Assembly: GCA_021324155.1 (NCBI GenBank)
Contig: JAJPJQ010000018.1
Span: 62,001-126,000 of the forward strand
Source: Pseudomonadota bacterium
GTDB taxonomy: Bacteria; Desulfobacterota; Binatia; UBA9968
DNA: 64,000 bases
Direction of reading: 5' to 3'
In this document: one piece after another, positions 24,897-63,184 of the stretch
Layout of the letters: every line of letters starts with the position of its first letter
How positions within the stretch are numbered: position 1 is the first letter of the stretch
Notes under the pieces: model-generated
What the model saw: the letters and a program-made list of their open reading frames with translations, nothing else
The model's database searches: none
What the model was told of the DNA's origin: nothing
Position numbers and translations under genes: made by a program

Positions 24897-24906
24897 GGCC
24901 ACCATC

Positions 24907-24935
24907 GTGCCCGGCGGAGTTACGCACACGGGCAC
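24907..24935 (-). promoter_or_regulatory. Leader hairpin just before the giant protein start
   Basis: A perfect 7-bp stem (GTGCCCG at 24907-24913, CGGGCAC at 24929-24935) with a 15-base loop ends 10 bases upstream of the ATG at 24896. It could mask the ribosome site. I could not match it to a known riboswitch class. Confidence 0.3.
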
Positions 24936-41514: not shown

Positions 41515-41549
41515 GAGAAAATTCCTCCTAAGTTTTTTTGCGACTCTGA

Positions 41550-41643
41550 ATTCCCCCCACCTTCTCCCCACGAAGCGTGGCGGAGAGGGAATTTTTTCGA
41601 GGCATTCACCCTCACCCGCTTGCGGGAGAGGCCAGGGGTGAGG
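41550..41643. repeat. Intergenic inverted-repeat element
   Basis: Two imperfect hairpins lie in tandem: one around CCACG-AAG-CGTGG (41569-41581) flanked by complementary CTTCTCC/GGAGAGG, the other from CTCACCCGCTTGCGGG to CCAGGGGTGAG (about 41611-41642). The composition is like dispersed REP/MITE-type elements seen in many proteobacterial genomes. It may also cut transcription between the UbiD and NicX-like genes. Confidence 0.5.
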
Positions 41644-43833: not shown

Positions 43834-44988
43834 TTACCCGTACGTCTTCAATACGTGGCGGGCGATCACCATGCGCATCACTTCGGAAGCGCCTTCCGTG
43901 ATGAGCCGGCTCCGCTGGTCGACGAACCACTTGGCGAGCGGCAGGTCGAGCGTGAGGCCGATGCCGCCGTGGATCTGGAGCACGCGATCGACGACGCGCA
44001 CCGACATCTCGTCGGCATAAAGTTTCGCCATGTACGCCTCGTTGCGCGTGTCTTCGCCTTGATCGCTCTTCCACGCGGCTTGATAGACCATGAGCCGCGC
44101 GGCATGCAGCTCGATATAGGAATCGGCGAGCTTCCACTGGATGGCCTGGCGCTCGGCGAGCGGCTTGCCGAATGTGACGCGCTGTTTGGCGTAGCTCGAG
44201 CCCATCTCGATGCAGCGCTCGGCGATGCCGATGGCGCGCGCGCCGTGCCGCAGGCGGCCCACCGACAGCCATTTCTGCGCGAGCTTGAAGCCTTCGCCTT
44301 CCTTGCCGACGAGATTCGCGGCCGGAACCTTCGCATCTTCGAAGACGATTTCGCACGGCTCGTCGCCCATGATCGTCTTGTAGCGCGCGGTGATCTTCAC
44401 GCCCGGCGTGTTCATGTCGACCAGCAGGCAGGAGATGCCTCCGTGCGAGCCTTTGGCCGGGTCGGTTACGACCATGACCTGCGCGAAGTCCGCCTTCTCC
44501 GCATCCGTGATGAAGCGCTTCACGCCGTTGACGATGTAATGATCGCCATGGCGCACGGCGCGCGTCTTCATCGAGCCCGGGTCGGATCCTGCGTCGGGCT
44601 CGGTCTGCGCGAAGCACATCGTCTTTTCGCCTTTGACGACGGGATAAAAATAGCGCTGCTTCTGCTCGTCGTTGAGGCTGTATAAAATCGGCCGCACCTC
44701 GGGGCCGAAGATCGTCTCGCCGCGCGACGGCAGAGCGGCCGTGCGCGCGAGCTGCTCCCAGACGACGACCTGCGCGAGAAGATCGAGTCCGGCGCCGCCG
44801 TACTCCTCCGGCACGTCGAGCATCCATAGGCCCATGTCGCGCGTCTTCTTCTCGAGTCTCGTCTTGACATCCGGCTTCAACTCCACGCCGTCCTTCGACT
44901 GCATTTCGATCGGGATCAATTCCTTATCGACGAATTGCCGGACGGTTTGCTGGAGCATCTGAAGCTCTTCGGGCAGATTGAAATCCAT
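43834..44988 (-). CDS. Acyl-CoA dehydrogenase
   Basis: A 384-residue flavoenzyme of the standard acyl-CoA dehydrogenase length. Landmarks are CFAQTEPDAGSD (about 124), VNGVKRFITDA (about 153), AKQRVTFGKPL (about 266) and the catalytic Glu in ITEGASEVMR (about 365). It introduces a double bond into an acyl-CoA thioester and passes electrons to ETF, which is not in the window. AAGGAG is well placed before the ATG. Acyl chain specificity cannot be read. It sits between binding-protein and OsmC genes. Confidence 0.93.
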   Translation of the reverse strand: MDFNLPEELQMLQQTVRQFVDKELIPIEMQSKDGVELKPDVKTRLEKKTRDMGLWMLDVPEEYGGAGLDLLAQVVVWEQLARTAALPSRGETIFGPEVRPILYSLNDEQKQRYFYPVVKGEKTMCFAQTEPDAGSDPGSMKTRAVRHGDHYIVNGVKRFITDAEKADFAQVMVVTDPAKGSHGGISCLLVDMNTPGVKITARYKTIMGDEPCEIVFEDAKVPAANLVGKEGEGFKLAQKWLSVGRLRHGARAIGIAERCIEMGSSYAKQRVTFGKPLAERQAIQWKLADSYIELHAARLMVYQAAWKSDQGEDTRNEAYMAKLYADEMSVRVVDRVLQIHGGIGLTLDLPLAKWFVDQRSRLITEGASEVMRMVIARHVLKTYG

Positions 44989-45016: not shown

Positions 45017-46003
45017 CTAAGGCGCCGGACGCCATTGCTGCGCTTTTAGGTCAGCCATCGTTTTGCGCGTCAGCGAAAAATCGAAAATCTTTCCCAGCGG
45101 TGGCGGCTCCTTATTTTTTTCGAGAAAAGCCGTCAGCGATTTTTTCTGCTGCGGCTCGCCGACGGTGCCGTCCTGCGTCATCCCGGGACGGACCTCGTCG
45201 TAGGTGCGCGCGGCGACGTCGGGCGTGATCTTCAGCGTGCGGGCGAGGAGCGCGATGGTCGGCGACCGATTGGCCTGCGCATACAGGAGGCCTTTCAGGC
45301 TGCCGCGGATGAATTTCTCGATCAGCGCCGGATCCGTCTTGAGCAGACTCGAGCGCGTGATGACCCCGCCCTGGAGATAGACATAATTCGGCTGGCGCAC
45401 GAAGGATACCAGCTCGCGAAAGCCTGCGTCCTCCGCCATGATATAAGCCGACGGCGACAGCATGGCGGCGTCCACCGCGCCGGTTTTCAGCGAGACGAAC
45501 CGCTCCATGCCCGTTCCGACCGCCAGGATGGTCGCGTCTCGTCCCGCTTCGATACCGTGATCATGCAAGAAATCCCTCAGCAGGGAGTCCGGACCGCTGC
45601 CGAAGCTAGAGACGCCGATGCGCCTGCCTTTCAGCTCCGCCACCGAGCGAATCGACGGATTCGAGTATAAGGAGAAATTCGCCTTGTCATAGCTCGTGAA
45701 AAGGAAGGTCATCGGCAGGCCGCGCGTGATCGGCAGTAGCGCCGAGCCGCCGGCGGTGCCGAATTCGACGTTGCCGGCGATAACCGCCTGAATCGAGATT
45801 GCGGCGCGCACGAGGATGAGCTCGACGTCGAGACCCTCCTCGCGCCAGTAGCCTTTTTCCTTGGCGATATAAAACGCGACGGAAGACTCCGACACCGCGG
45901 GTATGGTCGCGTTGATTTTTCGAAGCGCCTGGGCTTCGGCGAAGCGCGGGGCCGCGCCCGAGAGAACCGCGAGGCAAAACAAAAACCAGCGGAGCGGATT
46001 CAT
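45017..46003 (-). CDS. NMT1-like ABC substrate-binding protein, no permease
   Basis: A 328-residue exported protein starting MNPLRWFLFC, chosen because its ATG overlaps the Mo-subunit stop (ATGA). The signal ends RFAEA. The fold is SsuA/NMT1-like (SSVAFYIAKEKGYWREEGLDVELILV, then SVAELKGRRIGVSSFGSGPDSLLRDFL). The ligand is unknown. Its coupling to a Mo subunit gene is strong evidence that the pathway's substrate or a precursor is what it binds. Confidence 0.85.
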   Translation of the reverse strand: MNPLRWFLFCLAVLSGAAPRFAEAQALRKINATIPAVSESSVAFYIAKEKGYWREEGLDVELILVRAAISIQAVIAGNVEFGTAGGSALLPITRGLPMTFLFTSYDKANFSLYSNPSIRSVAELKGRRIGVSSFGSGPDSLLRDFLHDHGIEAGRDATILAVGTGMERFVSLKTGAVDAAMLSPSAYIMAEDAGFRELVSFVRQPNYVYLQGGVITRSSLLKTDPALIEKFIRGSLKGLLYAQANRSPTIALLARTLKITPDVAARTYDEVRPGMTQDGTVGEPQQKKSLTAFLEKNKEPPPLGKIFDFSLTRKTMADLKAQQWRPAP

Positions 46004-48225
46004 GCGGAGCGGTCCTTTCGATATTTCAGCGCGGAGTAAATCTTTTCCGCCGTGATCGGCGCGTCGAGGATCTGCACGCCGATTGCGTCGTAGACCGCAT
46101 TGGCGATCGCTGCGGGCGTCGGCGTCGTCGTGCACTCGCCGATGGGTTTGCTTTGAAACGGCCCCGGTCCGGCGGGGTTGTAGACATGGATGGTCTCGAG
46201 CTCCGGGATATCGCGCACGCAGGGAATTTTATAGTCGCCCAGGTTCGTCGTTGTGATCCGGCCCTCGGAATCGGGGAGGTTCTCGATCGTCGCGAAACCG
46301 AGCCCCTGCATCATACCGCCCTCGATCTGTCCCTGGTGCGCGATCGGGTTGATGATCGTGCCGACTTCGTTGAACGAAGTGATTTTCAGATGAACGATTT
46401 TTCCCGTCTCGGGATCGATCTGAATGTCGGCGGCCTGGCCGAAGAAAGAGAGCGTGCCGTCTCTGTCCGAATGGATGCGCCGTCCGAATTCCTTCATCTC
46501 GCCGGTTTCGGCAGCGAGCGCGCCGAAGCTGAGCTTCTTCCCCGGCGCCGACAGCATCCCGCGACCGACATGGATCGCGGCCTCCGGCAGTTCCCAGCGG
46601 TGCGCCGCCTCGGTAATCATTTTTTCACGGAGCTTAGTCGCGGCGATCGTCGCCGCCGTGCCGGCGAGAAAAGTCACGCGGCTTCCGCCGAGGGCGATAT
46701 CCGTCGCGAACGTGTCGGTGTCGCCCGAGATGATCGTGACCTCGTCGGCGGCGATGCCGAAGATCTCAGCCACGATCTGGCGGAGAATCGTGTGCGCGCC
46801 GGTGCCCGTGTCGGTCACGGTCGTCAGGATGAAAATCTTGCCCTGCCGGTCCATCCCCACTTCGAGATTGCATTCTCCGGGGCCGATGTTGCCGATGCAC
46901 AGAGCAACGCCGCGACCGGCGAATGGCTTCTTGCCGGAAGCCCGCTTCGGCCGCATGCGGTCGACGACCGTGATGCCCATGTCGCTGTCGATTCGGTGGC
47001 CGCCGGCCAGCATGTCGCCGATACGCAGTACGTTCTTCCGTCGGAATTCCCACGGGTCCATGCCGATCTGGCGAGCGATGTAGTCGGTGTGCGATTCCAC
47101 GGCGAAATAAATCTGCGGATCGCCGGGGCCGCGCATGTGGCCGCTCGGAATCAAATTCGTGTAGATCGAGAAGGCATCCACGGCGGAGTTAGGAATACGG
47201 TAGGCGCCGGCGGCGTGCCGGGCGCCTGGAAGATTGATCGTCGCGTTCGGCTTAAAGCCGGCGTATGCGCCGCTGTTGAATACGACGCGGACTTCGCGGG
47301 CCCACAGCGTGCCGTCTTTTTTAACCCCGCTCTTGATCCGGATGGTCGAAGGATGGCGCGGATTTCCCGCGCTCAGCTCCTCGCCGTAGGTCATCACCAT
47401 CTTCACCGGCCTGCCGGCGGCGCGCGAGAGATAATAAGCGAGCGGGATGTCCATCACCGAACCCTTGGCGCCGAAATCGCCGCCGACGGGGCCGAGCTGA
47501 ATCAAAATCTTCGCCGGTTCGACGCCGAGAATCTCCGCCAGATACTGTCGCGTCTGAAACGGAACCTTATTCGACGACCAGACGGATATGCGATCGCCAT
47601 TGCCGGCATCGACGACGCAGGAATGCGGCTCGAGATAGGCCTGATGGACACGGTGTGTGGTGAATGTCTGCTCGAAGACGAAGTCGGATTCGGCAAAGCC
47701 TGCCGCGGCGTCGCCGAGACGCCATTTAACGTGCGAGTGGGTATTGGGCAGCGACGGCATGGGCTGCGGCGCGTTGATATAGCCGCCGAGATTTTCGTGC
47801 AGCACAGGCGCGCCTTCTCGCATCGCCGACGCCGCGTCGAAGACCGCCGGAAGCTCAGCATACTCGACATCGATCAGCGCCGCCGCCTCTTCGGCGATTG
47901 CAGCGCTCTCCGCCGCTACCGCGGCGACTTTCTCACCGACGAAGCGCACACGGTCGCGCGCCAGCACCGGCATGTCGCGGAGCTGGCGGCCGAAAAGCTT
48001 TTCGGATACGTCGGCCGCCGTGATAACCGCCAGCACGCCGGGAACGGCGCGCGCGCGCGACGCATCGATTCTGACGATGCGCGCGTGGGGCAGGGGACTG
48101 CGCAGAGTTTTTCCCCAGGCGATGTTTGGCAGCGAGCGGTCGGCGGTATAGACCGCCTTTCCGGTCACCTTATGCCTGCCTTCGAATTTGGGCTCGGATT
48201 TGCCGATGGCGGAATATTTTTTCAA
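46000..48225 (-). CDS. Molybdenum hydroxylase large subunit, set 3 (orphan)
   Basis: A 741-residue Mo-cofactor subunit with a TTG start (MKKYSAIGK). It has the hammerhead domain (VTGKAVYTADRSLP), PVGGDFGAKG near 240, GHMRGPGDPQ near 345 and SKPIGECTTTP with the catalytic Glu near 710. No FeS or FAD subunit gene adjoins it; the nearest are those of set 2, 8-10 kb away on the same strand. It may borrow them or use partners encoded elsewhere. Substrate unknown; the CO dehydrogenase loop is absent. Confidence 0.9.
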   Translation of the reverse strand: MKKYSAIGKSEPKFEGRHKVTGKAVYTADRSLPNIAWGKTLRSPLPHARIVRIDASRARAVPGVLAVITAADVSEKLFGRQLRDMPVLARDRVRFVGEKVAAVAAESAAIAEEAAALIDVEYAELPAVFDAASAMREGAPVLHENLGGYINAPQPMPSLPNTHSHVKWRLGDAAAGFAESDFVFEQTFTTHRVHQAYLEPHSCVVDAGNGDRISVWSSNKVPFQTRQYLAEILGVEPAKILIQLGPVGGDFGAKGSVMDIPLAYYLSRAAGRPVKMVMTYGEELSAGNPRHPSTIRIKSGVKKDGTLWAREVRVVFNSGAYAGFKPNATINLPGARHAAGAYRIPNSAVDAFSIYTNLIPSGHMRGPGDPQIYFAVESHTDYIARQIGMDPWEFRRKNVLRIGDMLAGGHRIDSDMGITVVDRMRPKRASGKKPFAGRGVALCIGNIGPGECNLEVGMDRQGKIFILTTVTDTGTGAHTILRQIVAEIFGIAADEVTIISGDTDTFATDIALGGSRVTFLAGTAATIAATKLREKMITEAAHRWELPEAAIHVGRGMLSAPGKKLSFGALAAETGEMKEFGRRIHSDRDGTLSFFGQAADIQIDPETGKIVHLKITSFNEVGTIINPIAHQGQIEGGMMQGLGFATIENLPDSEGRITTTNLGDYKIPCVRDIPELETIHVYNPAGPGPFQSKPIGECTTTPTPAAIANAVYDAIGVQILDAPITAEKIYSALKYRKDRSA

Positions 48226-48270: not shown

Positions 48271-49365
48271 TTAGCAATGGTGGAATATGTCGCAGTACCA
48301 GCGGGCGTAGTCCGCGTATTGCGGACCGAACTTCTCCGGGTTCACGACCAGGTATTTCGGCTTGACCAGCTCTGGATAGAGATGCTTGAAGCCCTGGATG
48401 GTGGAGTTCCTGCCGAATTTCCCTACGAGAATTTCCTGTCCCTCAGACAGCAGCCAGTCGATCATGAGAGCCGCGGCGTGCGGATGCGCGCTGTGTTTCG
48501 CCAACAGCACATACTTGGGAGTGGACAAGACCGGCTCCAGCAGCACGGCTTCCACGGGAGCTCCCCTGCGCTTCAGCTCCACAACATTATGCCCCAGAAG
48601 CCACGGCGCCATGGCGAATTCTCCGGCGGCCAGCAGCTGCGCTTGCAGCGTGTGCCCCTCGCGCATCGCGGGCGCGTTTTTCGCCAACCGGGTGAAATAG
48701 GCGAAAGTTTTTTCCTTGCCCCAGAATTCCAGCAGCGTTCCGAAGAGCTCCTGGTCGGCGCTGCTGAGGGAAAGTTTGCCTTTATAAATCGGATTCAAGA
48801 GATCGTCGTATGTTTTCGGCATCTCGTTTTTCGAAATGCTCGGCGTGTGGATTCCCAAGGCCATGACCGAATGAAAGTAGCCTGTCCAGTACCCTTCTTT
48901 ATCGGCATAGCCCTCGAGAACGGATTTACGGAGCGGCGAGAGGTACGGGTCGAGCAATTGGCTTTGCTTCAATTTGAACGCGGAGTCGGGGGAAATCTCG
49001 ATGACGTCGACGGCATGACTTCCCGCGCGCGCTTCCGCCAGTACCTTGGAAGACACGCCGTTCGTCGTGGCCCGGAAATTGTCGACTTGGAGAAACGCGT
49101 ATTTCTTCTTGAAGCGCTCAAGCAGCTGCTGCATCACGGCGACATTGGTCGTGCCGTAGAGAACGATCTTACCTTCGCGCTTCGCGCCCTCGATAAGCTG
49201 CGACTCGCGGGCGGGGTCTTGAAGGCCCTGGAAGTGCTGGAGGACTTGGCCCGCGGTTTTGCCAAGAGCGGCGCCGCCGGCGGCATGCAAAAAGACAAGC
49301 AAGAAAAATAATTTCGAGAAGCGATAGGTGATGCGTCTTGGATTCGGACGAGCGTGGCGGGTCAT
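48271..49365 (-). CDS. Extracellular solute-binding protein (iron-type fold), no permease
   Basis: A 364-residue exported protein with a signal (RFSKLFFLLVFLHAAGGAALG). It has an iron/thiamine-type binding fold: GKIVLYGTTNVAVMQQLLERFKK, then DVIEISPDSAFKLKQSQLL. It is similar in layout to the protein at 31.8-32.9 kb, sharing the WLLSEGQE-type and HPHAAALMIDW motifs. It starts 9 bases after the second TPP-subunit gene. No permease or ATPase is nearby. Confidence 0.83.
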   Translation of the reverse strand: MTRHARPNPRRITYRFSKLFFLLVFLHAAGGAALGKTAGQVLQHFQGLQDPARESQLIEGAKREGKIVLYGTTNVAVMQQLLERFKKKYAFLQVDNFRATTNGVSSKVLAEARAGSHAVDVIEISPDSAFKLKQSQLLDPYLSPLRKSVLEGYADKEGYWTGYFHSVMALGIHTPSISKNEMPKTYDDLLNPIYKGKLSLSSADQELFGTLLEFWGKEKTFAYFTRLAKNAPAMREGHTLQAQLLAAGEFAMAPWLLGHNVVELKRRGAPVEAVLLEPVLSTPKYVLLAKHSAHPHAAALMIDWLLSEGQEILVGKFGRNSTIQGFKHLYPELVKPKYLVVNPEKFGPQYADYARWYCDIFHHC

Positions 49366-49374
49366 TGTTGCGCT

Positions 49375-49974
49375 TTATCCACGGCCCAAAAAGATCGGCT
49401 TTCCTTCCGTCTTTTCGATATAACGAACGAAGCGATATTTATTTTCCAGCAGGTCCATGTTGGTGCGCTGGATTTTACGATGGCCGCGGCTCTCTTCGAC
49501 TTTCGCGACAATGAAGTTGAGGCCGCTTCCGGTCAGAGCCGGGAGCGCGGCTTTCTTGAACGTCTCGAGATCGCGCACCGTCACCGCGTCCTCGATGCCG
49601 GCGCCGCGAGCGATGATCTCGAGGTCGGTCTTGCCGGCGGTCGCTGTCGGCTCGCTGATGCGCGTGCCGCTATAAATCTGGTTGTCGAAGACGAACACGG
49701 AGAGATTTTGTGGGCCGAGATTTGCCACCGTCGGAAGATTGAAAAGCGACAGCAGGATGCTGCCGTCGGATTCCAGGACGACAACCCGCCGATGGGGCAA
49801 GGCCATGGCAAGGCCGCAGCCCACCGCCAACGCGTTGCCCATCGAGCCGAGCAGCAGATTGCCCTCGCGGTTGGAAAGGTGTCCCCACTCCACGCGCTGA
49901 CCGCTGAGCGACGTCACGACGAGGTGATCGTCGATGAGCGGCGCCATCCACTCGAAGCATTCGTATCGGATCAT
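49375..49974 (-). CDS. TPP decarboxylase-like beta (cofactor-binding) subunit, pair 2
   Basis: A 199-residue protein with the C-terminal TPP-enzyme fold, like ComE (sulfopyruvate decarboxylase beta) and phosphonopyruvate decarboxylase. The cofactor/Mg motif begins ESDGS near 77 and ends FVFDNQIYSG near 110; the first Gly of the usual GDG is Ser. It overlaps its alpha partner by ATGA. The pair should decarboxylate a 2-oxo acid, but the substrate is unknown. Confidence 0.86.
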   Translation of the reverse strand: MIRYECFEWMAPLIDDHLVVTSLSGQRVEWGHLSNREGNLLLGSMGNALAVGCGLAMALPHRRVVVLESDGSILLSLFNLPTVANLGPQNLSVFVFDNQIYSGTRISEPTATAGKTDLEIIARGAGIEDAVTVRDLETFKKAALPALTGSGLNFIVAKVEESRGHRKIQRTNMDLLENKYRFVRYIEKTEGKPIFLGRG

Positions 49975-50477
49975 ACCGTGAACTCCCCCGTAAAGAGCAG
50001 AACGACCGGCAGCTTGAGCGCGTGCATCATGCGCACGGCGTCTTTGATGCGCGTTTCCAGATTCTCGCCGTCGGTGACGATCTGGTATTCGATTCCGAGC
50101 GCCTCAAGAACGGGAATCATCCGGGTGCCGCGGCGAACGTACAAGAAGCTGTTTCTCTTGTCCGCGGCGCTGCCGACGTACGATACCAGGAGAAGCATTG
50201 GTATGCCGAAGCGCTCGGCGATCGTCAGCAGGTTGTAGGTAGACACGAACACGCCGGTGCCCTCCATATACGATGCGACCTGCTTGCCGCCCAGGGCCGC
50301 GCCTGCGGCGATCGAAACTCCCTCGGCTTCGCTCGCCACCGGCGCGAGCTGAAAAAATTCATCCTGGCGCATGAGCGGTAGGATCTGGCTCAAGCGCGTT
50401 TCCGGCAGGTAGGTGACGAAATTGATGCCGGCCGCTTTCAGGCCGTTGACGAGTTTACTGGCGAGCTCCGGTTCCAC
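49971..50477 (-). CDS. TPP decarboxylase-like alpha (N-terminal) subunit, pair 2
   Basis: A 168-residue protein with the N-terminal TPP-enzyme domain. It has the activating Glu in ASEAEGVSIAAGAALGGK (about 47-64) and the MEGTGVFVSTYNLLT segment. The size matches the alpha subunit of ComDE-type sulfopyruvate decarboxylase (about 169 residues). It makes the active site with the following beta subunit. It is the third gene of the minus-strand arm; 39 bases separate it from pair 1. Confidence 0.86.
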   Translation of the reverse strand: MEPELASKLVNGLKAAGINFVTYLPETRLSQILPLMRQDEFFQLAPVASEAEGVSIAAGAALGGKQVASYMEGTGVFVSTYNLLTIAERFGIPMLLLVSYVGSAADKRNSFLYVRRGTRMIPVLEALGIEYQIVTDGENLETRIKDAVRMMHALKLPVVLLFTGEFTV

Positions 50478-50516
50478 GATGGTAACTCCTTCAGAGACGA
50501 AGCCGTTGGGATTTCG

Positions 50517-51116
50517 TCAGCCGCGGCCGCGAAACACCGCCTTGCCTTCGGTGCGTTCGATATAGCGGACGAAGCGGTACTTGTTCTCCGTCAAGTCGGC
50601 AGTCGATCGCTCGGCCTGCCGGTGCTCGAGCGTTTCTTCCACTTTAGCGACCACAAATCCCAGTCCTTGGCGACTAAGCGCCCCTTGGGACTCGCGCTTG
50701 AAGCTATCGAGATCGCGCACCTCCACGGCGTGCGAGATGCCGCAGTCACGGGCAACTGCGGCAAGATCGGTTCCGGCCGCCGTGGCGGACGGTCGGCTGA
50801 TTCGGCTGCCGCTGTATTTCTCGTTGTCGAAGACGAAGACGACTAGGTTGTCCGGCTTTAGTGCTCCTAGAGTCGGTAAGTTGAACAGCGACAGCAGCAC
50901 GCTGCCGTCGGATTCTATGACGATAACTTTGCGATGGGGGAGGCCGAGCGCCATGCCGAGGCCGACGCCGAGCGCGTTGCCCATCGACCCCAGCAGAAGA
51001 TTTCCGTCATGTTCCTTCGTCAGATGGCCCCAGATCCACTGGCCGCTGACGGATGGGACGACGAGCTGGTCTGTGATGTGCGGCACGAGAGATTCGAGAC
51101 AGGCGCTGCGATTCAT
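50517..51116 (-). CDS. TPP decarboxylase-like beta subunit, pair 1
   Basis: A 199-residue cofactor-binding subunit closely parallel to that of pair 2, with ESDGSVLLSLFNL and FVFDNEKYSG as cofactor/Mg motif. It starts MNRSACLES and overlaps the alpha subunit by ATGA. It begins the first of two consecutive pairs, presumably a tandem duplication with divergence. Confidence 0.86.
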   Translation of the reverse strand: MNRSACLESLVPHITDQLVVPSVSGQWIWGHLTKEHDGNLLLGSMGNALGVGLGMALGLPHRKVIVIESDGSVLLSLFNLPTLGALKPDNLVVFVFDNEKYSGSRISRPSATAAGTDLAAVARDCGISHAVEVRDLDSFKRESQGALSRQGLGFVVAKVEETLEHRQAERSTADLTENKYRFVRYIERTEGKAVFRGRG

Positions 51117-51619
51117 AGTGTAAAAGCTCCCGTGAAGAGCAGCGCGACGGGCTGCTTCAGCGCATGCATCATTCGCGTCGCATTCTGTAGCTGCGTCTCA
51201 ACTTGCGCCGGGTCCTCGGCGATCTGATATTCGATGTTGAGCGCGCGCAGCTGTTGCTCGGTGCGGAGTCCCGTCGGCGCGAAACGAAAACTGTTTTTCT
51301 GATCCGCCATGCTGCCGACGTAAGAGATAAGAAGGAGAATCGGTGTGCCGACGCGGATGCTGACGGTAAGCAAATTGTACGAGCAGACGAACAGGCCGGT
51401 CCCTTCCATATAGACGGCCGGCTGCTTGCCGACGAGAGCGGCACCCGATGCGATTGTGACCGCCTCGGCTTCGCTCGACGTTGGAACGAGTTTGAAAGCG
51501 GAATCCGCTTCGAGCAGCGGAAGAATGCGGCTCAGCCGCGTCTCGGGGAGGTAGGTAACGAAATCGATGCCGGCGCCCTTCAGCGCCGCGGCCGTTTTTT
51601 GTGCGACGTCTTTTTCCAT
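51113..51619 (-). CDS. TPP decarboxylase-like alpha subunit, pair 1 (first gene of the minus arm)
   Basis: A 168-residue N-terminal TPP-domain subunit with SSEAEAVTIASGAALVGK and MEGTGLFVCSYNLLT. It is the first gene after the shared divergent promoter; the ATG at 51619 lies about 50 bases from the predicted minus-strand transcription start. Together with pair 2 it gives two neighbouring decarboxylase candidates; neither substrate is known. Confidence 0.86.
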   Translation of the reverse strand: MEKDVAQKTAAALKGAGIDFVTYLPETRLSRILPLLEADSAFKLVPTSSEAEAVTIASGAALVGKQPAVYMEGTGLFVCSYNLLTVSIRVGTPILLLISYVGSMADQKNSFRFAPTGLRTEQQLRALNIEYQIAEDPAQVETQLQNATRMMHALKQPVALLFTGAFTL

Positions 51620-51631
51620 GCGAGAACGTGC

Positions 51632-51704
51632 TTGACAACTACATGCAGTTCTGAATAAAACGCTGCATGTCGCTGGCTATATAACAGCGTCCGAGACGTG
51701 TCAA
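51632..51704. promoter_or_regulatory. Overlapping divergent promoters with central operator
   Basis: Plus strand: TTGACA (51632-51637), then AATAAA 16 bases on. Minus strand: TTGACA (51704-51699), then TATAGC 17 bases on. Between them is the perfect inverted repeat ACATGCAG (51641-51648) / CTGCATGT (51663-51670), centres 22 bases apart, two helical turns. A GntR-family dimer bound here would cover both promoters. The arrangement is typical of an autoregulated catabolic switch. Confidence 0.6.
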
Positions 51705-51706
51705 CA

Positions 51707-52393
51707 ATGGAAGCCTCTAACGGCAAGAATCTCACCGAAGAAGCCTACCAGAAGATCAAAGGCTTCATCCTGAGCAGCGAGATTTATCCACGCCAGAAGA
51801 TCGTCATCGAGGAGCTCGCGCGACAAATGGGGGTGAGCCGCACGCCGATCCGCGAGGCGATGAACCGTTTGGTGAACGAAGGGTACGTCACGCACGTCTG
51901 GAACCGTGGCTTCTCCGTCAAGGAAATTACCGCCGACGAAGTCGAGGAGCTTTACGGCGCGCGGGAGGCGCTGGAGCCTTATCTCGCCGAGGAAGCCGCG
52001 CGCCGAATCAGCAAAAGCGAAGTCCAGGACCTCGAGCGGCTGCTGAAGCAATACGGCGAATTTGTCGAGCGCCGGCCGCGCCGCCAGCGCCGGCTGGTCG
52101 ACCTCGACTTCCATTCGAAGATCGGCAAGATTGCCGGTAACTCCTATCTGCAGAGCATCCTCGGCGAAGTCTTCGAGCGTATCGTCCTCAAACAGAGGGT
52201 GGCGGCCGGCCAGCTCGACCGCGGCAAGGATGCCTGGCTGCAACACCGCGCGATTCTTGTCGCAATCCGCGACGGCAAGCCGAAGGAAGCGCGCCGGGCT
52301 GCGCTTTTTCACGTGCGGAAATCGAAACAGCTCGCGATGCTTCGCCTCCAGGAAGAAGCCGAGTATTTGAAACAGCTAAGAGTCGTCGGCTAA
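51707..52393 (+). CDS. GntR-family (FCD) transcriptional regulator
   Basis: A 228-residue regulator. A winged helix (residues about 8-72, with ARQMGVSRTPIREAMNRLVNEGYV) precedes an all-helical FCD ligand-binding domain (about 85-215), which often binds a metal through Asp/His residues; DLDFHSKIGKIAGN and WLQHRAIL are candidates. It is first in the plus arm, and its promoter overlaps that of the minus arm. It probably represses both until an organic acid appears. The ATG at 51707 is favoured over a GTG at 51698. Confidence 0.9.
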   Translation: MEASNGKNLTEEAYQKIKGFILSSEIYPRQKIVIEELARQMGVSRTPIREAMNRLVNEGYVTHVWNRGFSVKEITADEVEELYGAREALEPYLAEEAARRISKSEVQDLERLLKQYGEFVERRPRRQRRLVDLDFHSKIGKIAGNSYLQSILGEVFERIVLKQRVAAGQLDRGKDAWLQHRAILVAIRDGKPKEARRAALFHVRKSKQLAMLRLQEEAEYLKQLRVVG

Positions 52394-52420: not shown

Positions 52421-54184
52421 ATGAACCAACCGCACTGCGACCCCATTTCCGTTGCGGTCATCTCCAACCGACTCGCCGCGATCACGAGAGAGATGGGGCA
52501 GATCATGCTGCTCACCTCGCGCTCTCCGATCTTCAGCGAATCGAGAGATTTCGTTACGGCGATCTTCGACGGCCAAGGCCGTCTCATTGCGCAGACATCC
52601 TATATACCCGTGCTGCTCGGGGCGATCCCCTTTGCTTTGCAAGCGATCCGCGACCGCTATCACGGCAAAGACCTCCACCCCGGCGATGTCATCGTCGCCA
52701 ACGATCCGTATCTCGGCAACAGCCATCTCCCCGACGTCACCATTGCGCGGCCGGTTTTTTATCGCGGCGAGCTCGTCTTCTGGGCCGTCACGAAAGGGCA
52801 CCAGGCCGACCTCGGCGGCGCCGGCGTCGCCGGCTATAACCCGGAGGCTACGACGGTTTGGGAGGAGGGTCTGCGGCTGCCGCCGATGAAGCTCTACAGC
52901 CAGGGCGAATACCAGCGCGATCTCTGGGACTTCATTCTCCTCAACGTCAAAAGCCGCCACTTGGTAGAGGGGGATTTGCATTGTCAGATAGGCGCTGCGA
53001 CGCGCGGCGAAGAGGCGGTGCTCGAGCTTTTGGATCGTTACGGGTGGGACGCTGCCGCAGCGGCGATTGAGGCGTATATTGCGGCAACCGAGAAGTCGAT
53101 GTCGGCGGCAATCAAAAAAATCCCCAACGGTATTTATGCCGGGGAAAGCTTCCTCGACAACGACGGTGTCGAGATGGAAAAGGCGCCGGGCATCCGCGTC
53201 GCCGTGAAAGTGGAAGACGAGACGCTCACCTTCGATTTCGCCGGCTCCGATCCTCAAACGCGCGGTTTCGTCAACAGCCCGTTCGCCAACACGGCGTCGG
53301 TTTGTTTCCAGGCGCTTTTCGCATGCATCGGCGCAGCGATCCCGATCAATTTCGGCTCGCTGCGGCCGATTCGCATCGTCGCGCCGGAAGGGTCGATCGT
53401 CAACTGCCGCGCGCCGGCGCCGACGACGGCGTCTACGCTCGTTACCTGCGCGGCGATCGCCGAAGCGATCTGGATCGCGCTCGCCGAGGCGATTCCGTCG
53501 CAAACCCAGTCCGGCTGGGGCCGGCGCTGCGCCCCGATGAGCGCGGGAACCAATCCGCGCACCGGCCGCCGGTTCGTATGCACGCATCACAACTGCAAAG
53601 GCGGCTCGGGCGCCACGGAAGGATATGATGGCTGGAACCATACCGGCCCTGTGAGCAACATGGGCGGATCGCGCGCGACCGATCCGGAGATCTTCGAGCT
53701 TGCATACCCCTACCGTCTCTTCGAATACGAGCTGGCGCCCGACACCGGAGGCGCCGGCCAATGGCGCGGCGGTACCGGCGCGGTGCTGCGCTGGCGCGTA
53801 GAGTCGCCGGACGTGCAATGCGTCACGGTCGGCTCGGGCATGCTCGAGCAAACGCGCGCCTTCGGCCTTTTCGGCGGTAAGCCGGGGTCGTTGCCGATCA
53901 TGCGCGTCGTCGGCGGCGACGGCGCAAGCAGAAAGCTCCCGCTCAACCAATTCTCGGAAGTCAAAGAAGGCGATGTCTTCGAACTCGTGTCTCAAGGCGG
54001 CGGAGGCTTCGGCGATCCCTTCATGCGCTCGCCCGAGCGAGTGCGCGACGACGTCGTCAACGGACTCGTATCGATGGAGAAAGCGGCGCAGGAGTACGGC
54101 GTGATGCTCGAGCGGCGCGGGCGCGAGATAGTAATCGATCGAGATGCCACCGCTAAAAAGCGCGCAGCACGAACAAAGGCCTAG
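52421..54184 (+). CDS. hyuB: Hydantoinase B / oxoprolinase beta-type subunit
   Basis: A 587-residue HyuB-family protein; DVIVANDPYLGNSHLPD near 90, VVTKGHQADLGG-type residues near 125 and the GGGGFGDP segment near 525 are family landmarks. HyuA/HyuB pairs include N-methylhydantoinase, 5-oxoprolinase and ATP-dependent carboxylases of acetone or acetophenone. Its partner hyuA is separated by a binding-protein gene. Starting 28 bases after the regulator, it is the first structural gene of the plus arm. Confidence 0.92.
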   Translation: MNQPHCDPISVAVISNRLAAITREMGQIMLLTSRSPIFSESRDFVTAIFDGQGRLIAQTSYIPVLLGAIPFALQAIRDRYHGKDLHPGDVIVANDPYLGNSHLPDVTIARPVFYRGELVFWAVTKGHQADLGGAGVAGYNPEATTVWEEGLRLPPMKLYSQGEYQRDLWDFILLNVKSRHLVEGDLHCQIGAATRGEEAVLELLDRYGWDAAAAAIEAYIAATEKSMSAAIKKIPNGIYAGESFLDNDGVEMEKAPGIRVAVKVEDETLTFDFAGSDPQTRGFVNSPFANTASVCFQALFACIGAAIPINFGSLRPIRIVAPEGSIVNCRAPAPTTASTLVTCAAIAEAIWIALAEAIPSQTQSGWGRRCAPMSAGTNPRTGRRFVCTHHNCKGGSGATEGYDGWNHTGPVSNMGGSRATDPEIFELAYPYRLFEYELAPDTGGAGQWRGGTGAVLRWRVESPDVQCVTVGSGMLEQTRAFGLFGGKPGSLPIMRVVGGDGASRKLPLNQFSEVKEGDVFELVSQGGGGFGDPFMRSPERVRDDVVNGLVSMEKAAQEYGVMLERRGREIVIDRDATAKKRAARTKA

Positions 54185-54207: not shown

Positions 54208-55194
54208 ATGACAAAAAAGCTTTTACTCTGCCTAACGATAACCGCGATCTTTCTGCAATCGCCGGCAATGGCTCAAGCGCCCAAAACAACCTTCAATGTA
54301 GGGTTCTCGGCGTTTTCCGCCGCGTTCATGCCGGCCTTTGTTGCGGATCAGGCCGGCTACTTCGCGCAGGAAGGCATCGGCACGCGGCTCGTGTTTTTTC
54401 AAAGCGGCGTGCAGCTCATGCAATCGGTCATCGCCGGCGACACGCACATCGGCATGGGCTCCGCGCCGGAGCTGGTGACGGCGACGAATGCGGGCGCGAA
54501 GGTGCACGGTTTTTGGGGCATCTCCAATCTCATGCCGTATGCGCTCATCTCGCGCCCCAATATCAAAACGATCGCCGAGCTGAAGGGAAAAAAGATCGCG
54601 GTGAGCGCGCGAGGCTCCTTAAGTGAATTTCTGGCGAGCTACGTTCTCAAAAACAAGGGTCTCGATCCGTCGAAAGACGTCGTCTACCTTCCGCTCGGCG
54701 GGGTGCCGACGCGGTTCGCCGCGCTGCTGTCCGGCTCCGCGGACGCGAGTCTCATCAGCGCAGCGCAGTTCGACAAGGGACGCAAGGCAGGCCTCAACTT
54801 TCTCTTTATGCTCGCCGATCTGATCCCGGAGTGGCCGCAGGACGTAATCTATTTGAAGGACGAGTTCGTCGCCAGCCGCGATCCGGAGTTCCGCGCCTTC
54901 TTACGCGCTTACCGGCGCGCCGTCGCGACCTCAAAGAAAAACCCCGACATCGCCATCGCCGCAATGCAGAAGGCGATGCGTTTCGATGAGCCGACCGCGC
55001 GCGACGGCTACAAAGCCTACGTGGCGTCGCTGCCGGACGACGGCCGGATCGGCGAGAAGGGGTTCGAGCTGCTCGTGGACCAGATGTTCCAGGAGAATAC
55101 GATCAAACGGCGGCTCACGATGACCGACCTGATCGATTACCGTTATATCCATGAAGCGCAGAAAAATAATAACGCACGATCGGTACGCGACTGA
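54208..55194 (+). CDS. NMT1-like ABC substrate-binding protein between hyuB and hyuA
   Basis: A 328-residue exported protein with a clear signal (MTKKLLLCLTITAIFLQSPAMAQA). The body is SsuA/NMT1-like: AFMPAFVADQAGYFAQEGIGTRLVFF, then KTIAELKGKKIAVSARGSLSEFLASY. It overlaps the hyuA start by one base. Placement between the two hydantoinase/carboxylase subunits ties its ligand to that enzyme's substrate. No permease gene is present. Confidence 0.86.
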   Translation: MTKKLLLCLTITAIFLQSPAMAQAPKTTFNVGFSAFSAAFMPAFVADQAGYFAQEGIGTRLVFFQSGVQLMQSVIAGDTHIGMGSAPELVTATNAGAKVHGFWGISNLMPYALISRPNIKTIAELKGKKIAVSARGSLSEFLASYVLKNKGLDPSKDVVYLPLGGVPTRFAALLSGSADASLISAAQFDKGRKAGLNFLFMLADLIPEWPQDVIYLKDEFVASRDPEFRAFLRAYRRAVATSKKNPDIAIAAMQKAMRFDEPTARDGYKAYVASLPDDGRIGEKGFELLVDQMFQENTIKRRLTMTDLIDYRYIHEAQKNNNARSVRD

Positions 55195-57281
55195 TGGCGG
55201 CCCGCGATCATTTCGATATCGGGATCGACGTCGGCGGAACTTTTACCGATTGCGTCATGATCGACGCGGCGGGGCGAAGCTTCGTCGAGAAGACCTTCAC
55301 GACGCCGCGCGACCCGTCCGAGGGCGTGCTCGCGGGCCTGGAAAAGCTCGCGACGAAGGCGAATGCGCCGCTCGCGGATTTTCTCCGCTGCGTTCGGCGC
55401 ATTGTCCACGGCACGACGATCACGACGAACGCCGTGCTCACCGGCAACGGCGTCAAGACGGGCTTCGTTACGACGCAGGGCTTCCGCGATGTGCTATTGA
55501 TGCGTCGCGGCGTGCGTGAAAACCAATTCAATTCGAAGATCGATCCGCCGCCGCCGCTCGTGCCGCGGAGCCTCACGGTGACCGTTGCCGAGCGCGTCGA
55601 TTGCGTCGGCGCCGAGACCGTTCCCCTCGACCGCGAGAGTGCGCGCCGGGCGATCCGCGACCTGAAGGAGCAAGGCGTCGAGTCCGTCGCCGTCAGTTTC
55701 CTGTTTTCTTTTCTCAATCCGAAGCATGAAGCAGAGATCGCAGAACTACTGAAAGAGGATTTTCCGGAAGCCTACATCTCGCTCTCGACGCAGGTCCTGC
55801 CGCAGCTGCGCGCGTACGAGCGCCACAGCACGACCGCGCTGAACGCTTACGTCGGTCCGTTGCTCGATCGCTATCTGCGGCGTTTAACCGAACGGCTCGA
55901 AAAAGCCGGATTCAGCGGACGGCTGCTCATCATGCAATCGAACGGCGGCGTCATGGCGCCCGAGACCGCCGCCCGCTTCGCCTGTCGTACGCTGCTCTCG
56001 GGACCCGCCGGAGGACCGGTCGCGGCCATTTTTTACGGTGGGCGCGCCGGACGTGGCGACGTGATCGCGATGGACATGGGAGGCACGAGCTTCGACGTGT
56101 CGCTTATCAAGGCGGGCGAAGCGAGCTTTACCACAACCGGCGATGTCGGCGGTCACGCTATGGCGTTCCCCGTGCTCGACATTCGCACCGTCGGCGCAGG
56201 CGGCGGCAGCATCGCCTGGCTCGACGACGGCGGCGTTCTCCACGTAGGCCCGGCCAGCGCCGGCGCGGATCCAGGTCCGATCTGCTACGGGCGCGGCGGA
56301 AAGGCCCCGACGGTCACCGACGCCGATCTCGTGCTCGGGTATTTGGGCGCCGACGATTTCTTAGGCGGCGAGTTCAGGCTCGACATTGACGGCGCTCGCA
56401 AGGGAATCCAGGAGCGCATCGCAGCGCCGTTGGGTTTAGATCTCATTACAGCCGCCGAGGGTATTCACCGGATCGTCAACGCCACGATGGCCGACGCGAT
56501 CCGGCTCGTCTCGATCGCGCAGGGCTACGACCCGCGTCAATGTACGCTCGTGGTAGCGGGCGGCGCCGGCGCGGTTCACGCCGCAGCGATCGCGCGCGAG
56601 CTCGGCATCACGAGCCTTCTCATCCCGCGCGAAGCGTCGGTTTTCTGCGCGGCGGGCATGCTGCTTTCCGATTTGAAGCACGACTATGTGCGCACGCTTT
56701 CCGGCGAGCTCGGGACCATCCCGCCCGAGAAAATCGCGGTGATCTATGCTGACATGTCTACCGAGGCGCTGCACACGCTCGCGGAAGAAGGCATCGGCGA
56801 GAGAGAAGCGCAGATTTCATACGGAGTCGATCTCAAATACGTCGGGCAGTTCCATGAAGTGACTATCCCGTTCGCGTCGGCTTCGACCGACGTCGAGCGG
56901 CTCAAGTCCGATTTCGCCGCGCGCCATCTGAAGCTTTACGGCTACAATCTTCCCGGCCAGCCGGTCGAAGCGCTTCACTGGCGCTTGACGGCAATCGGGC
57001 GCACCGAGCGGCCGCGTTTTGCGCGCGCAGCATCGGTTTCGAGCAAGCCGGCGCCGACAAAACGCGACGTGGTTTTCGACGGCCGAAAAACCTCGACGGA
57101 CGTCTATCGCGGCGGCGAGCTGAATCCCGGAGCGTCGTTCGAAGGCCCCGCGATTATCGAAGAGCCCACGACGACGATCGTGATTCCGCCGGCGTGCAGG
57201 CTTGCAGTTAACGAATTCGGCGATTACGAGCTGACGCTAGCGTCCGAACAGGCCGCGCCCACCATCGCGGCGGCGAGTTGA
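55194..57281 (+). CDS. hyuA: Hydantoinase A / oxoprolinase alpha-type subunit (ATPase)
   Basis: A 695-residue HyuA protein. N-terminal IGIDVGGTFTDCV is the phosphate-binding loop of the actin-like ATPase fold; GTTITTNAVL near 75, DMGGTSFDVSLI near 300 and GPASAGADPGPICYGRGG near 350 are family marks. It would use ATP to activate a carbonyl or lactam for hydrolysis or carboxylation with HyuB. It starts at the last base of the binding-protein stop. Confidence 0.93.
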   Translation: MAARDHFDIGIDVGGTFTDCVMIDAAGRSFVEKTFTTPRDPSEGVLAGLEKLATKANAPLADFLRCVRRIVHGTTITTNAVLTGNGVKTGFVTTQGFRDVLLMRRGVRENQFNSKIDPPPPLVPRSLTVTVAERVDCVGAETVPLDRESARRAIRDLKEQGVESVAVSFLFSFLNPKHEAEIAELLKEDFPEAYISLSTQVLPQLRAYERHSTTALNAYVGPLLDRYLRRLTERLEKAGFSGRLLIMQSNGGVMAPETAARFACRTLLSGPAGGPVAAIFYGGRAGRGDVIAMDMGGTSFDVSLIKAGEASFTTTGDVGGHAMAFPVLDIRTVGAGGGSIAWLDDGGVLHVGPASAGADPGPICYGRGGKAPTVTDADLVLGYLGADDFLGGEFRLDIDGARKGIQERIAAPLGLDLITAAEGIHRIVNATMADAIRLVSIAQGYDPRQCTLVVAGGAGAVHAAAIARELGITSLLIPREASVFCAAGMLLSDLKHDYVRTLSGELGTIPPEKIAVIYADMSTEALHTLAEEGIGEREAQISYGVDLKYVGQFHEVTIPFASASTDVERLKSDFAARHLKLYGYNLPGQPVEALHWRLTAIGRTERPRFARAASVSSKPAPTKRDVVFDGRKTSTDVYRGGELNPGASFEGPAIIEEPTTTIVIPPACRLAVNEFGDYELTLASEQAAPTIAAAS

Positions 57282-57286
57282 GGAAT

Positions 57287-58924
57287 ATGAAAGCTCCAAA
57301 GGACGTGCGCGAGCATATCAAGAACTTGGAGGAGCGCGGCCTACTGGTTCGCGTCTCGCGGCCGTCCAACAAGGATACCGAGATCCACCCGCTCGTGCGC
57401 TGGCAGTTTCGCGGCGGCGTCCGCGAGGAAGACCGGAAGGCATTTCTCTTCGAGAACGTCGTTGACGATCGTCGTAAATACGATGGCTCCGTGCTCGTCG
57501 GCGGGCTGGCCGCGTCGCGCTGGGTTTACGCGCTCGGCATGGGCTGCGAGCCGAGTGAGATCGTCGAGAAGTGGCAGAAGGCGCTTGCGAAGCCGGTCGA
57601 GCCGGCGCTCGTCGAGAGCGGCCCGGCGCAGGAAGTCGTCCATATGGGCGACGCGCTCGACCGCGAAGGCGGCGGCCTCGACGCGATCGCCGTGCCGATT
57701 TCCACGCCTGGCTTCGACAACGCGCCGTATTTCACCTGCGCGCAGTGGATCACCAAAGATTTGGAGACCGGCATTCGCAACGTCGGCAACTACCGCGCCC
57801 AGGTGAAAGGCCGCCGCCGGACGGGCGTCTGCCCGGGGCCGCAGGCGAATCAGCAGTTGAATATTCATTGGCGGCAAGCGGCGGCGCGCGGCAAACATCT
57901 CGAAGCCGCCCTGGTCGTCGGCGGGCCGCCGGTCGTGACCCACGCCGCCGTGCAAAAGATTCCGTACGGCGTCGACGAGCTGGCGGTCGCCGGCGCGCTC
58001 GCGGGCGAGCCGATCCCGCTGGTCAAGTGCAAGACCGTCGACGTCGAAGTGCCCGCGACGGCCGAGATCGTGCTCGAAGGCATCATCCGCACCGATTTCC
58101 TCGAGCCCGAGGGCGCCTTCGGTGAGTCGCACGGCTACATTCACCCGCGCATCATGAATCCGGTGTTCGAGATCAGCTGCATCACGCACCGTAAAAACCC
58201 GGTCTTTGTCGGCATATTGAGCCAAGTGACGCCGAGCGAGTCGAGCAAGCTCAAAGAGATCGGCATGGAGGCGATGCTGCTACGCTACCTGCGCGAGCAC
58301 TCGAGCAATGAGTGGGTGACCGGCGTCGGCTGTTACGAGCCGCTGGTCAACCTAAGGCGCTACGTCGTCGTCCAGTGCAAGCGCGGCGCGCCGCAGTACG
58401 AAGTGTGGCGCGCGCTCCACGGCGTGCTCGCGTTTCGCCAGGAGCTCGGCAAATACGTCGTCGCAGTCGACGATGACATCGATCCGAAGGACGGCGATGC
58501 GATCAACTGGGCGATCACGATGCGCTGCGAGCCGTCGAAGGACGTGCGCATCGTCGAGGGCCGTGAGAAAGGCCATGCGCCGCCGTTCCGCGTGCACGGC
58601 GAATCGATCGACAAAATGGAAGAGGCCGAAGAGCGCTCGGCGGAATACTCCGTCATGATGATGAATGCGACACTCAAGGAGCCGTTCCCGCCCGTTGCGC
58701 TGCCGTCGCAGGAATATATGGAGCGGGCGAAGGATATCTGGGAAAACGAACTCAAGCTGCCACCGCTGCGGCCGCAATCGCCGTGGTACGGCTACTCGCT
58801 CGGTCAGTGGGACGAAGAGTCCGTCGATGAGGCGGCGGCGGCGATGAAGGGTGAATATTACAAAACCGGCGACAAACTCGCCGGGCGTCGCGTGCCGGTG
58901 AAGATCAAGCGAGGGGATAAATAG
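57287..58924 (+). CDS. UbiD-family decarboxylase 2
   Basis: A 545-residue UbiD protein, about 70 residues longer than copy 1. Landmarks are RTGVCPGPQANQQLNIHW near 180, LEPEGAFGESHGYI near 277 and AVDDDIDPKDGDAINWAITMR near 390. It would decarboxylate (or carboxylate) an aromatic acid with prFMN. The ATG at 57287 lies 5 bases after the hyuA stop, with GAGGA close before it; a TTG at 57278 is also possible. It starts the metabolic half of the plus arm after the hydantoinase unit. Confidence 0.9.
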   Translation: MKAPKDVREHIKNLEERGLLVRVSRPSNKDTEIHPLVRWQFRGGVREEDRKAFLFENVVDDRRKYDGSVLVGGLAASRWVYALGMGCEPSEIVEKWQKALAKPVEPALVESGPAQEVVHMGDALDREGGGLDAIAVPISTPGFDNAPYFTCAQWITKDLETGIRNVGNYRAQVKGRRRTGVCPGPQANQQLNIHWRQAAARGKHLEAALVVGGPPVVTHAAVQKIPYGVDELAVAGALAGEPIPLVKCKTVDVEVPATAEIVLEGIIRTDFLEPEGAFGESHGYIHPRIMNPVFEISCITHRKNPVFVGILSQVTPSESSKLKEIGMEAMLLRYLREHSSNEWVTGVGCYEPLVNLRRYVVVQCKRGAPQYEVWRALHGVLAFRQELGKYVVAVDDDIDPKDGDAINWAITMRCEPSKDVRIVEGREKGHAPPFRVHGESIDKMEEAEERSAEYSVMMMNATLKEPFPPVALPSQEYMERAKDIWENELKLPPLRPQSPWYGYSLGQWDEESVDEAAAAMKGEYYKTGDKLAGRRVPVKIKRGDK

Positions 58925-62054: not shown

Positions 62055-62064
62055 AGGCGGTGTG

Positions 62065-62571
62065 ATGGAAGCAGAACTGGCCAAAAGACTCGTCGGCGGC
62101 CTCGGCGACGCGGGCATCGATTTCATGAGCTATCTCCCCGAAAGTCGCCTCAGCCAAATTTTGCCGCTCATGCGGAGCGATCCGCGCTTTCGCCTCGCGC
62201 CTGCCGCGAGCGAGACCGACGCGGTGTCGATTGCCGTCGGAGCGACGCTCGGCGGCAAGCAGTCCGCCTGTTACATGGAGAGCACCGGAATTTTCGTCTC
62301 GTCGTATCAGCTCGTGGTCGTGGCGCTGCATCTCCGCGTCCCCGTTCTGCTGCTGGTCGGACACCTCGGCGGCTTCGACGACCAGCGCAACAGCTTTCTT
62401 TATTCGCTGCCGGGCCGGCTTTTGCTTCCGACGCTCGACGCGCTCCACATCGAGCACACCGTGGTCAAGAACGGAGATGAGATCGAGGGCGACATCAAAA
62501 CGGCAGTGCGCACGATGAACGCGTTGCGCGAGCCGGTGGCGCTCGTCTTCACGGGAGACTTCACGATATGA
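62065..62571 (+). CDS. TPP decarboxylase-like alpha subunit, pair 3
   Basis: A 168-residue subunit parallel to those of the minus arm (LAPAASETDAVSIAVGATLGGK region and MESTGIFVSSYQLVV). The usual SEAE motif is SETDAV here, so the activating Glu is retained in a slightly altered context. It starts 10 bases after the LLM gene and overlaps the beta gene by ATGA. Confidence 0.86.
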   Translation: MEAELAKRLVGGLGDAGIDFMSYLPESRLSQILPLMRSDPRFRLAPAASETDAVSIAVGATLGGKQSACYMESTGIFVSSYQLVVVALHLRVPVLLLVGHLGGFDDQRNSFLYSLPGRLLLPTLDALHIEHTVVKNGDEIEGDIKTAVRTMNALREPVALVFTGDFTI

Positions 62572-63170: not shown

Positions 63171-63184
63171 AGCGAGAGGTCAAT

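Follow-up and report, generated by a model that had tools for sequence, protein, structure and literature searches.

Thiamine diphosphate (TPP)-dependent enzymes are the textbook enzymes of 2-oxo acid chemistry. The stretch of DNA considered here, which we call the window, is 64,000 nucleotides long (positions 62001-126000 of contig C20, in a genome of 4.8 Mb that is 98% complete, G000) and contains three complete pairs of genes for the alpha and beta subunits of a two-subunit TPP enzyme. The alpha subunits have 168-169 amino acids and the beta subunits 199-200 amino acids, and in each pair the alpha gene lies upstream and overlaps the beta gene by 4 nucleotides. Pair 1 (alpha, 51113..51619, 168 amino acids; beta, 50517..51116, 199 amino acids) and pair 2 (alpha, 49971..50477, 168 amino acids; beta, 49375..49974, 199 amino acids) are on the minus strand, and pair 3 (alpha, 62062..62571, 169 amino acids; beta, 62568..63170, 200 amino acids) is on the plus strand, where its beta gene overlaps the next gene by 4 nucleotides. 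The preliminary description of this DNA had located three pairs of about 168 and 200 residues in a stretch of 14 kb that takes in both arms of a divergent cluster; the pairs indeed span 13.8 kb, and the arms diverge at a GntR gene beginning at 51698.

The alpha chain corresponds to the PYR domain of a TPP enzyme, supplying the glutamate that activates the cofactor, and the beta chain to the PP domain, holding Mg-TPP via the elements SDG...DN. Pfam TPP_enzyme_N matches all three alpha subunits (1.6e-6, 9.7e-8 and 8e-6, the last slightly below the gathering score; alpha1 matches at 9.7e-8), and TPP_enzyme_C matches all three beta subunits (5e-13, 3e-12 and 1e-16; beta1, 2.8e-12). The chains of pair 2 were identified by open reading frame, Pfam and AlphaFold2 model, and those of pair 3 by open reading frame, Pfam and motif table. 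The single-chain AlphaFold2 models of alpha2 (predicted local distance difference test, pLDDT, 82.5; predicted template modelling score, pTM, 0.82) and beta2 (pLDDT 84.8, pTM 0.86) have as their top matches in the PDB RhiE and AzcB (alpha2) and RhiF and AzcC (beta2), with template modelling scores of 0.7-0.85. The predicted fold is that of the two-subunit TPP decarboxylases ComDE, RhiEF and AzcBC.

The position of the pairs among these decarboxylases was determined from three trees of concatenated alpha and beta subunits. In the first tree, the window pairs group with four other paralogs of their own genome and a Rhizobium pair. In the second tree, LumK/LumL, the quinoxaline carboxylate decarboxylase of Nocardioides simplex (PMC12746152), was added and lies outside the clade that holds the window pairs (support 100/100); LumKL, initially expected to be the closest relative, was dropped from that role on this result. 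In the third tree, RhiEF and AzcBC were added, the latter being a TPP-dependent alpha-imino acid decarboxylase according to the title of PDB entry 9U8Q. AzcBC lies within the superclade of the window pairs (a 31-tip node, 96/94), closest to a group of Rhizobium and Nocardioidaceae pairs (97/97), and is the only characterised enzyme placed there; RhiEF, AepY, Ppd and ComDE are grouped apart from it (91/90). The approximately unbiased (AU) test rejected a grouping of the window pairs with ComDE/Ppd (p=0.009) and did not reject one with AzcBC (p=0.10); a grouping of AzcBC with Ppd was borderline (p=0.06). Among the NCBIfam models, those of ComDE (TIGR03845/TIGR03846) are the best for most chains at 61-104 bits, i.e., 61-86 bits against a cut-off of 148 and 88-104 bits against a cut-off of 221.5, and none of the 17 matches in the genome passed the cut-off. 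With the alpha profile, AzcB scored higher than RhiE (91 versus 66 bits). A match on an Arthrobacter plasmid (H99) turned out to be a phosphonopyruvate decarboxylase linked to a phosphoenolpyruvate (PEP) mutase. On the best reading of these sequences, the window pairs would be functional two-subunit TPP decarboxylases and would represent a subfamily that has yet to be characterised. Their description as ComDE-like thus holds for architecture and fold but not for the nearest characterised relative, which is AzcBC; the suggestion that the clade does something new stands, because membership of the characterised sulfopyruvate/phosphonopyruvate clade was rejected.

The active-site motifs divide the family in a similar manner. 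In the motif alignment, all three window beta subunits read ESDGS...(V)FDN, in which the Asp and Asn that hold Mg-TPP are retained, the second Mg-TPP element (DN) lying about 30 residues beyond DGS. The alpha subunits retain the catalytic Glu (SEAEG, SEAEA and SETDA; in alpha1 it lies in SSEAEA) and read YLPETRLSRI, YLPETRLSQI and YLPESRLSQI in pairs 1, 2 and 3, respectively. The preliminary description had noted ESDG where GDG is usual, which is true against the sulfopyruvate and phosphonopyruvate enzymes, and had named loss of the TPP-binding residues as what would tell against its interpretation; the Asp, the Asn and the catalytic Glu are all there. Because the Asp of DGS and the later DN are retained, SDG differs from GDG at its first residue, which is not a ligand, and it does not signify a lost cofactor site. 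Nor is it a peculiarity of the locus: the first Gly of GDG is Ser, Thr or Ala in most beta subunits of the superclade, so SDG is a trait of the subfamily.

Two positions, one in each subunit, separate the groups. On one side, with S/T-DG in beta and P-D/E in alpha, are the window clade (all 15 window-type pairs in the last alignment have SDG, combined with LPE or VPE), the Rhizobium type (TDG, LPD), three Nocardioidaceae pairs (TDG, LPE) and AzcBC (TDG, VPD); on the other, with GDG and P-C, are ComDE, RhiEF, AepY and Ppd, of which the first three, together with a PEP-mutase-linked enzyme, read GDG and VPC. LumKL combines GDG with LPD. The window pairs thus carry the signature of AzcBC (S/T-DG in beta and an acidic residue after the alpha Pro), with the VPC and GDG of the phosphonopyruvate decarboxylases replaced by LPE and SDG. 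Among the sister loci of the Rhizobium type, both subunits are encoded in all 80 that were fetched, and the 63 beta subunits parsed by script all have TDG.

The preliminary description counted three pairs, which is correct for the window, but the genome as a whole has 13 beta homologues, five of which (the window type) are 63-100% identical to beta2. The window type is present in 19 of the 39 genomes searched (its own and those of relatives). The window beta subunits are 63-70% identical to each other, which is lower than their identity to the nearest relatives in another genus (beta1, 79%, L066; beta2, 83%; beta3, 77%), and against those relatives the ratio of nonsynonymous to synonymous change (pN/pS) is 0.14-0.23, with synonymous sites saturated. 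Since every pair of the window has nearer kin in another genus than among its neighbours, the three pairs are, in keeping with the repeated retention proposed earlier, old paralogs separately kept under purifying selection and not products of recent tandem duplication. A division of labour, with differing substrates among the three pairs, may have accompanied this. One sister genus has exactly one pair in each of nine species, adjoining an M20 hydrolase gene, with Amidohydro_2 and RidA-type genes close by as well in several of the species (L086, L087, L088, L094, L095), which suggests a compact, dedicated pathway. In another paralog of the window's own genome (L019, 9238-11401), the usual order is broken: the beta gene comes first, then an NMT1 binding protein, and the alpha gene last.

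The genes around the pairs are those of a catabolic cluster. The rightward arm, on the plus strand, begins with the GntR/FCD regulator at the point of divergence (51698..52393; PF00392, PF07729), followed by a HyuB-like subunit (52421..54184; PF02538, 9e-160; nearest NCBIfam model caprolactamase beta, NF050157, 412 bits against a cut-off of 1000), an NMT1/THI5-like substrate-binding protein (54208..55194; PF09084, 1e-26), a HyuA-like subunit (hydantoinase A/oxoprolinase; 55194..57281; PF01968, 2e-96), UbiD-family decarboxylase B (57278..58924; PF01977, 5e-54), an ADP-forming acyl-CoA synthetase (58933..61056; ATP-grasp_5, Succ_CoA_lig, CoA_binding_2) and, directly upstream of alpha3 and beta3, a luciferase-like (F420-type LLM) oxidoreductase (61050..62054; PF00296, 2e-46; TIGR03842 below cut-off). 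Coupled to pair 3 is an isochorismatase-fold amidohydrolase (63167..63931; PF00857, 2e-27), whose top PDB match is N-carbamoylsarcosine amidohydrolase (6e-29).

The leftward arm opens with alpha1-beta1-alpha2-beta2, after which come, on the minus strand, an extracellular solute-binding protein (SBP_bac_6; 48271..49365; PF13343, 4e-15), the large subunit of molybdenum hydroxylase 2 (xanthine dehydrogenase/4-hydroxybenzoyl-CoA reductase type; 46000..48225; MoCoBD_1/2; TIGR03194, 465 bits, below cut-off), an acyl-CoA dehydrogenase (43834..44988; PF00441 and others), UbiD-family decarboxylase A (41664..43079; PF01977, 7e-59), an M29-fold protein distantly like NicX (40456..41571) and the large subunit of molybdenum hydroxylase 1 (carbon monoxide dehydrogenase/glyceraldehyde dehydrogenase type; 38074..40446). 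To the latter enzyme belong a FAD_binding_5 subunit (35028-35903) and, judging from position and size, a probable [2Fe-2S] subunit (37617-38081), and beyond them is a two-cupin protein like gentisate/5-aminosalicylate dioxygenases (33870..35006, minus strand; Cupin_2 twice; NF049978, weak). The genes annotated in the two arms include those of molybdenum hydroxylase and isochorismatase but no Rieske or P450 gene. Elsewhere in the window, at 19257-24935, is a gene for a protein of 1892 amino acids that combines Kelch repeats with five bacterial Ig-like (Big_3_5) domains, close to CHASE2-guanylate cyclase, TPR and FecR proteins.

Across the genome, genes for catabolism of ring acids are strongly expanded: it contains 41 genes of the UbiD family and encodes about 26 large subunits of molybdenum hydroxylases. 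Three of the five window-type pairs have a molybdenum hydroxylase gene within 5 kb (p about 4e-4 by chance), and all five have a UbiD gene within 10 kb (p about 3e-4); these values, for which the five pairs were counted as four independent places and positions were taken as random along the genome, are generous because catabolic genes cluster in any case. Many NMT1/THI5-type binding proteins also surround the TPP loci of this genome.

Similar company is found at related loci, more tellingly still beside the sister pairs of the Rhizobium type. The 80 named Rhizobium-type sister loci (from Rhizobiales, Rhodobacterales, Microbacterium and others) include a molybdenum hydroxylase in 59, an amidohydrolase of the methylthioadenosine/atrazine type in 68, a Rieske-type protein in 64-65 and a GMC oxidoreductase in 71. 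In Rhizobiales, Rhodobacterales and Microbacterium (L097, 13322-34804, and L100-L179), the TPP pair is part of a highly conserved, uncharacterised cluster with GMC, aldehyde dehydrogenase (ALDH), molybdenum hydroxylase, N-heterocycle-type amidohydrolase, Rieske and glutathione S-transferase genes and a BMP-type ABC importer. The substrate of this cluster may be a heterocycle resembling a pterin or a flavin; from its GMC, ALDH, xanthine dehydrogenase (XDH) and deaminase-like amidohydrolase genes, pterin catabolism would be plausible, and a paper on folate degradation (PMC9513972) gives no TPP gene. Three Nocardioidaceae pairs of the superclade (G705, G506 and G625) sit with genes for a molybdenum hydroxylase and a Rieske-type dioxygenase, near extradiol-dioxygenase-like and aldolase-like genes, these neighbours having been judged by reading their sequences only. 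The Nocardioidaceae clusters (L206, L207 and L208), with their TPP pair, molybdenum hydroxylase, Rieske alpha/beta-like, extradiol-like and hydratase-aldolase-like genes, are reminiscent of those for degradation of bicyclic N-heteroarenes.

What, then, might the window pairs do? They probably act on cyclic alpha-imino acids (N-heterocycle 2-carboxylates) or on aryl 2-oxo acids. The most likely single reaction, to which we assign a probability of roughly 0.45, is decarboxylation of a cyclic alpha-imino acid with TPP as cofactor. The substrate would be an N-heteroaromatic 2-carboxylate, or a dihydro or hydroxylated form of one, in which C=N stands where a 2-oxo acid has C=O; the TPP carbanion would attack the carbon beside the carboxylate, and CO2 would leave. 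The decarboxylated ring would then pass to the neighbouring molybdenum hydroxylases, ring-opening oxygenases and amidohydrolases, with hydroxylation of the ring before or after loss of CO2. We infer both the substrate class and the direction of the reaction from four points taken together: the chemistry of LumKL, the title of the AzcBC entry, the replaced Cys and Gly, and the adjoining molybdenum hydroxylases. LumKL is a two-subunit TPP enzyme that decarboxylates a heteroaromatic alpha-imino acid, which is possible because the ring C=N beside the carboxylate takes the part that C=O plays in a 2-oxo acid (PMC12746152, PMC12752717). With AzcBC as the nearest characterised relative, acids of the C=N type would be expected rather than sulfopyruvate or phosphonopyruvate, and with them a little-known route for degrading N-containing rings.

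Several observations weigh against this proposal. The window clade proper is without any member of assigned substrate. The node tying AzcBC closest to the window clade is weak (35/67), the AzcBC and RhiEF sequences were taken from PDB alignments, AzcBC being only near-complete, and with the beta profile alone RhiF scored higher than AzcC (74 versus 53 bits). The AU test also rejected a grouping of the window pairs with LumKL (p=0.009). The M29-fold protein at 40456-41571, whose only PDB relative is NicX, had to be dropped as support because the NicX iron ligands (H265, S302, H318, D320) are absent from it: H265 is replaced by Glu and there is no C-terminal HxD motif. A nicotinate-type pathway was discarded on the same grounds, and the protein possibly has a third activity in the aminopeptidase/NicX fold. 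Finally, UbiD, the cupin dioxygenase and the acyl-CoA enzymes are not specific to N-heterocycles and would equally fit catabolism of homocyclic aromatic compounds.

In the main rival explanation, an aryl 2-oxo acid, our second choice of substrate, would be decarboxylated. Here, the pairs would be ordinary 2-oxo acid decarboxylases that belong to an aromatic acid pathway and act on aryl or branched acids of the benzoylformate, arylpyruvate or oxo-dicarboxylate kind. Between them, the copies would cover several related oxo acids, and the aldehyde product would pass to a dehydrogenase or a CoA branch. In its favour, 2-oxo acids are the substrates of most relatives, whether two-subunit or single-chain, and the nearby genes for UbiD, an acyl-CoA dehydrogenase and an ADP-forming acyl-CoA synthetase would suit such a pathway. 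Against it, the genes annotated in the two arms include no aldehyde dehydrogenase, the pairs lack VPC, the motif of the known C3 oxo-acid enzymes, and AzcBC, as the only characterised member of the superclade, acts on an imino acid by the title of its PDB entry. We regard this explanation as a serious contender with a substantial minority chance of being right. Another rival, that the pairs are bacterial sulfopyruvate (ComDE) or phosphonopyruvate decarboxylases, has in its favour that TIGR03845/TIGR03846, NF004813 and TIGR03297 are the best NCBIfam models; it is very improbable, and membership was ruled out by scores (at best 104 against 221.5 and 86 against 148 bits), tree and motifs. Furthermore, no PEP mutase, phosphonate, sulfolactate or taurine genes occur among the annotated neighbours, whereas a PEP mutase gene is present at the Ppd-like loci L070 and L098.

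The TPP fold is also common to acetolactate synthase, benzaldehyde lyase and 2-oxoacid:ferredoxin oxidoreductase, and the pairs could therefore carry out carboligation (formation of acyloin or 2-hydroxyacyl-type C-C bonds) or serve an oxidoreductase as its TPP half, rather than decarboxylate non-oxidatively. This seems unlikely, given that no ferredoxin-binding or CoA-binding subunit is attached and that those relatives in the tree that have been characterised are decarboxylases. Since the window has three copies in a 14-kb span and the genome 13 in total, it might also be supposed that some are catalytically dead, as regulatory or decaying paralogs. However, the catalytic Glu, the DG..N site and the invariant residues of the superclade are retained in all three pairs, and each pair has an orthologue in another genus under purifying selection, so there is very little to recommend this idea.

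If the window clade does decarboxylate alpha-imino acids, it would show where this reaction is common, offer two residue positions at which its basis can be tested, and be a source of enzymes for breaking down heterocyclic pollutants. More broadly, and more tentatively, the clade could be a family of TPP decarboxylases for N-heteroaromatic 2-carboxylates that, in an uncultured lineage, has expanded to several paralogs in each genome, each with its own substrate, and works beside UbiD decarboxylases and molybdenum hydroxylases. TPP chemistry on C=N carboxylates would then be a widespread catabolic strategy, beyond the two isolated cases of AzcBC and LumKL. The locus is compact enough to serve as a test bed, since three old paralogs that share one active-site signature are gathered in a single cluster.

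The known systems resemble the window pairs in different respects. AzcB/AzcC of Streptomyces (PDB 9U8Q, 9U8R, 9U8S), of which no description was found in open papers, shares with them the two chains (about 170 and 194 amino acids), the fold, Thr or Ser before DG, an acid after the active-site Pro of alpha, and the superclade; it differs in having only about 20% identity and in branching nearest to the Rhizobium/Nocardioidaceae group rather than to the window clade. RhiE/RhiF (phosphonopyruvate decarboxylase; PDB 9IZ3, 9IZ4) has the same two-subunit architecture and fold and is the best structural match, but has GDG and VPC and groups with AepY/Ppd. ComD/ComE (sulfopyruvate decarboxylase) is similar in subunit sizes, in alpha-beta order and in providing the best NCBIfam model for most chains, whereas its scores are far under the cut-off, its clade is separate, and it too has GDG and VPC. 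The L068-type pair of Rhizobiales, Rhodobacterales and Microbacterium belongs to the same superclade, with beta subunits about 35-40% identical to those of the window; unlike them, it is at least 79% conserved, has TDG and P-D, and usually sits in its own cluster of molybdenum hydroxylase, Rieske, amidohydrolase, GMC and ALDH genes. LumKL was located by finding the family from 16S, then by profile search and gene order, and was thus identified in Nocardioidaceae genomes by the order and size of genes, not by locus tag: isochorismatase, XDH, TPP alpha, TPP beta, an amidohydrolase of 493 amino acids and a P450 of 740 amino acids. It resembles the window in being a two-subunit TPP pair, with an acid after the alpha Pro (P-D), in a catabolic cluster with a molybdenum hydroxylase, an isochorismatase and ABC importers; LumK depends on its partner to be soluble. 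Unlike the window pairs, LumKL lies outside the superclade, keeps GDG, and has P450 and Rieske genes in its cluster. LumKL is a mechanistic analogue of the window pairs and not a member of their clade.

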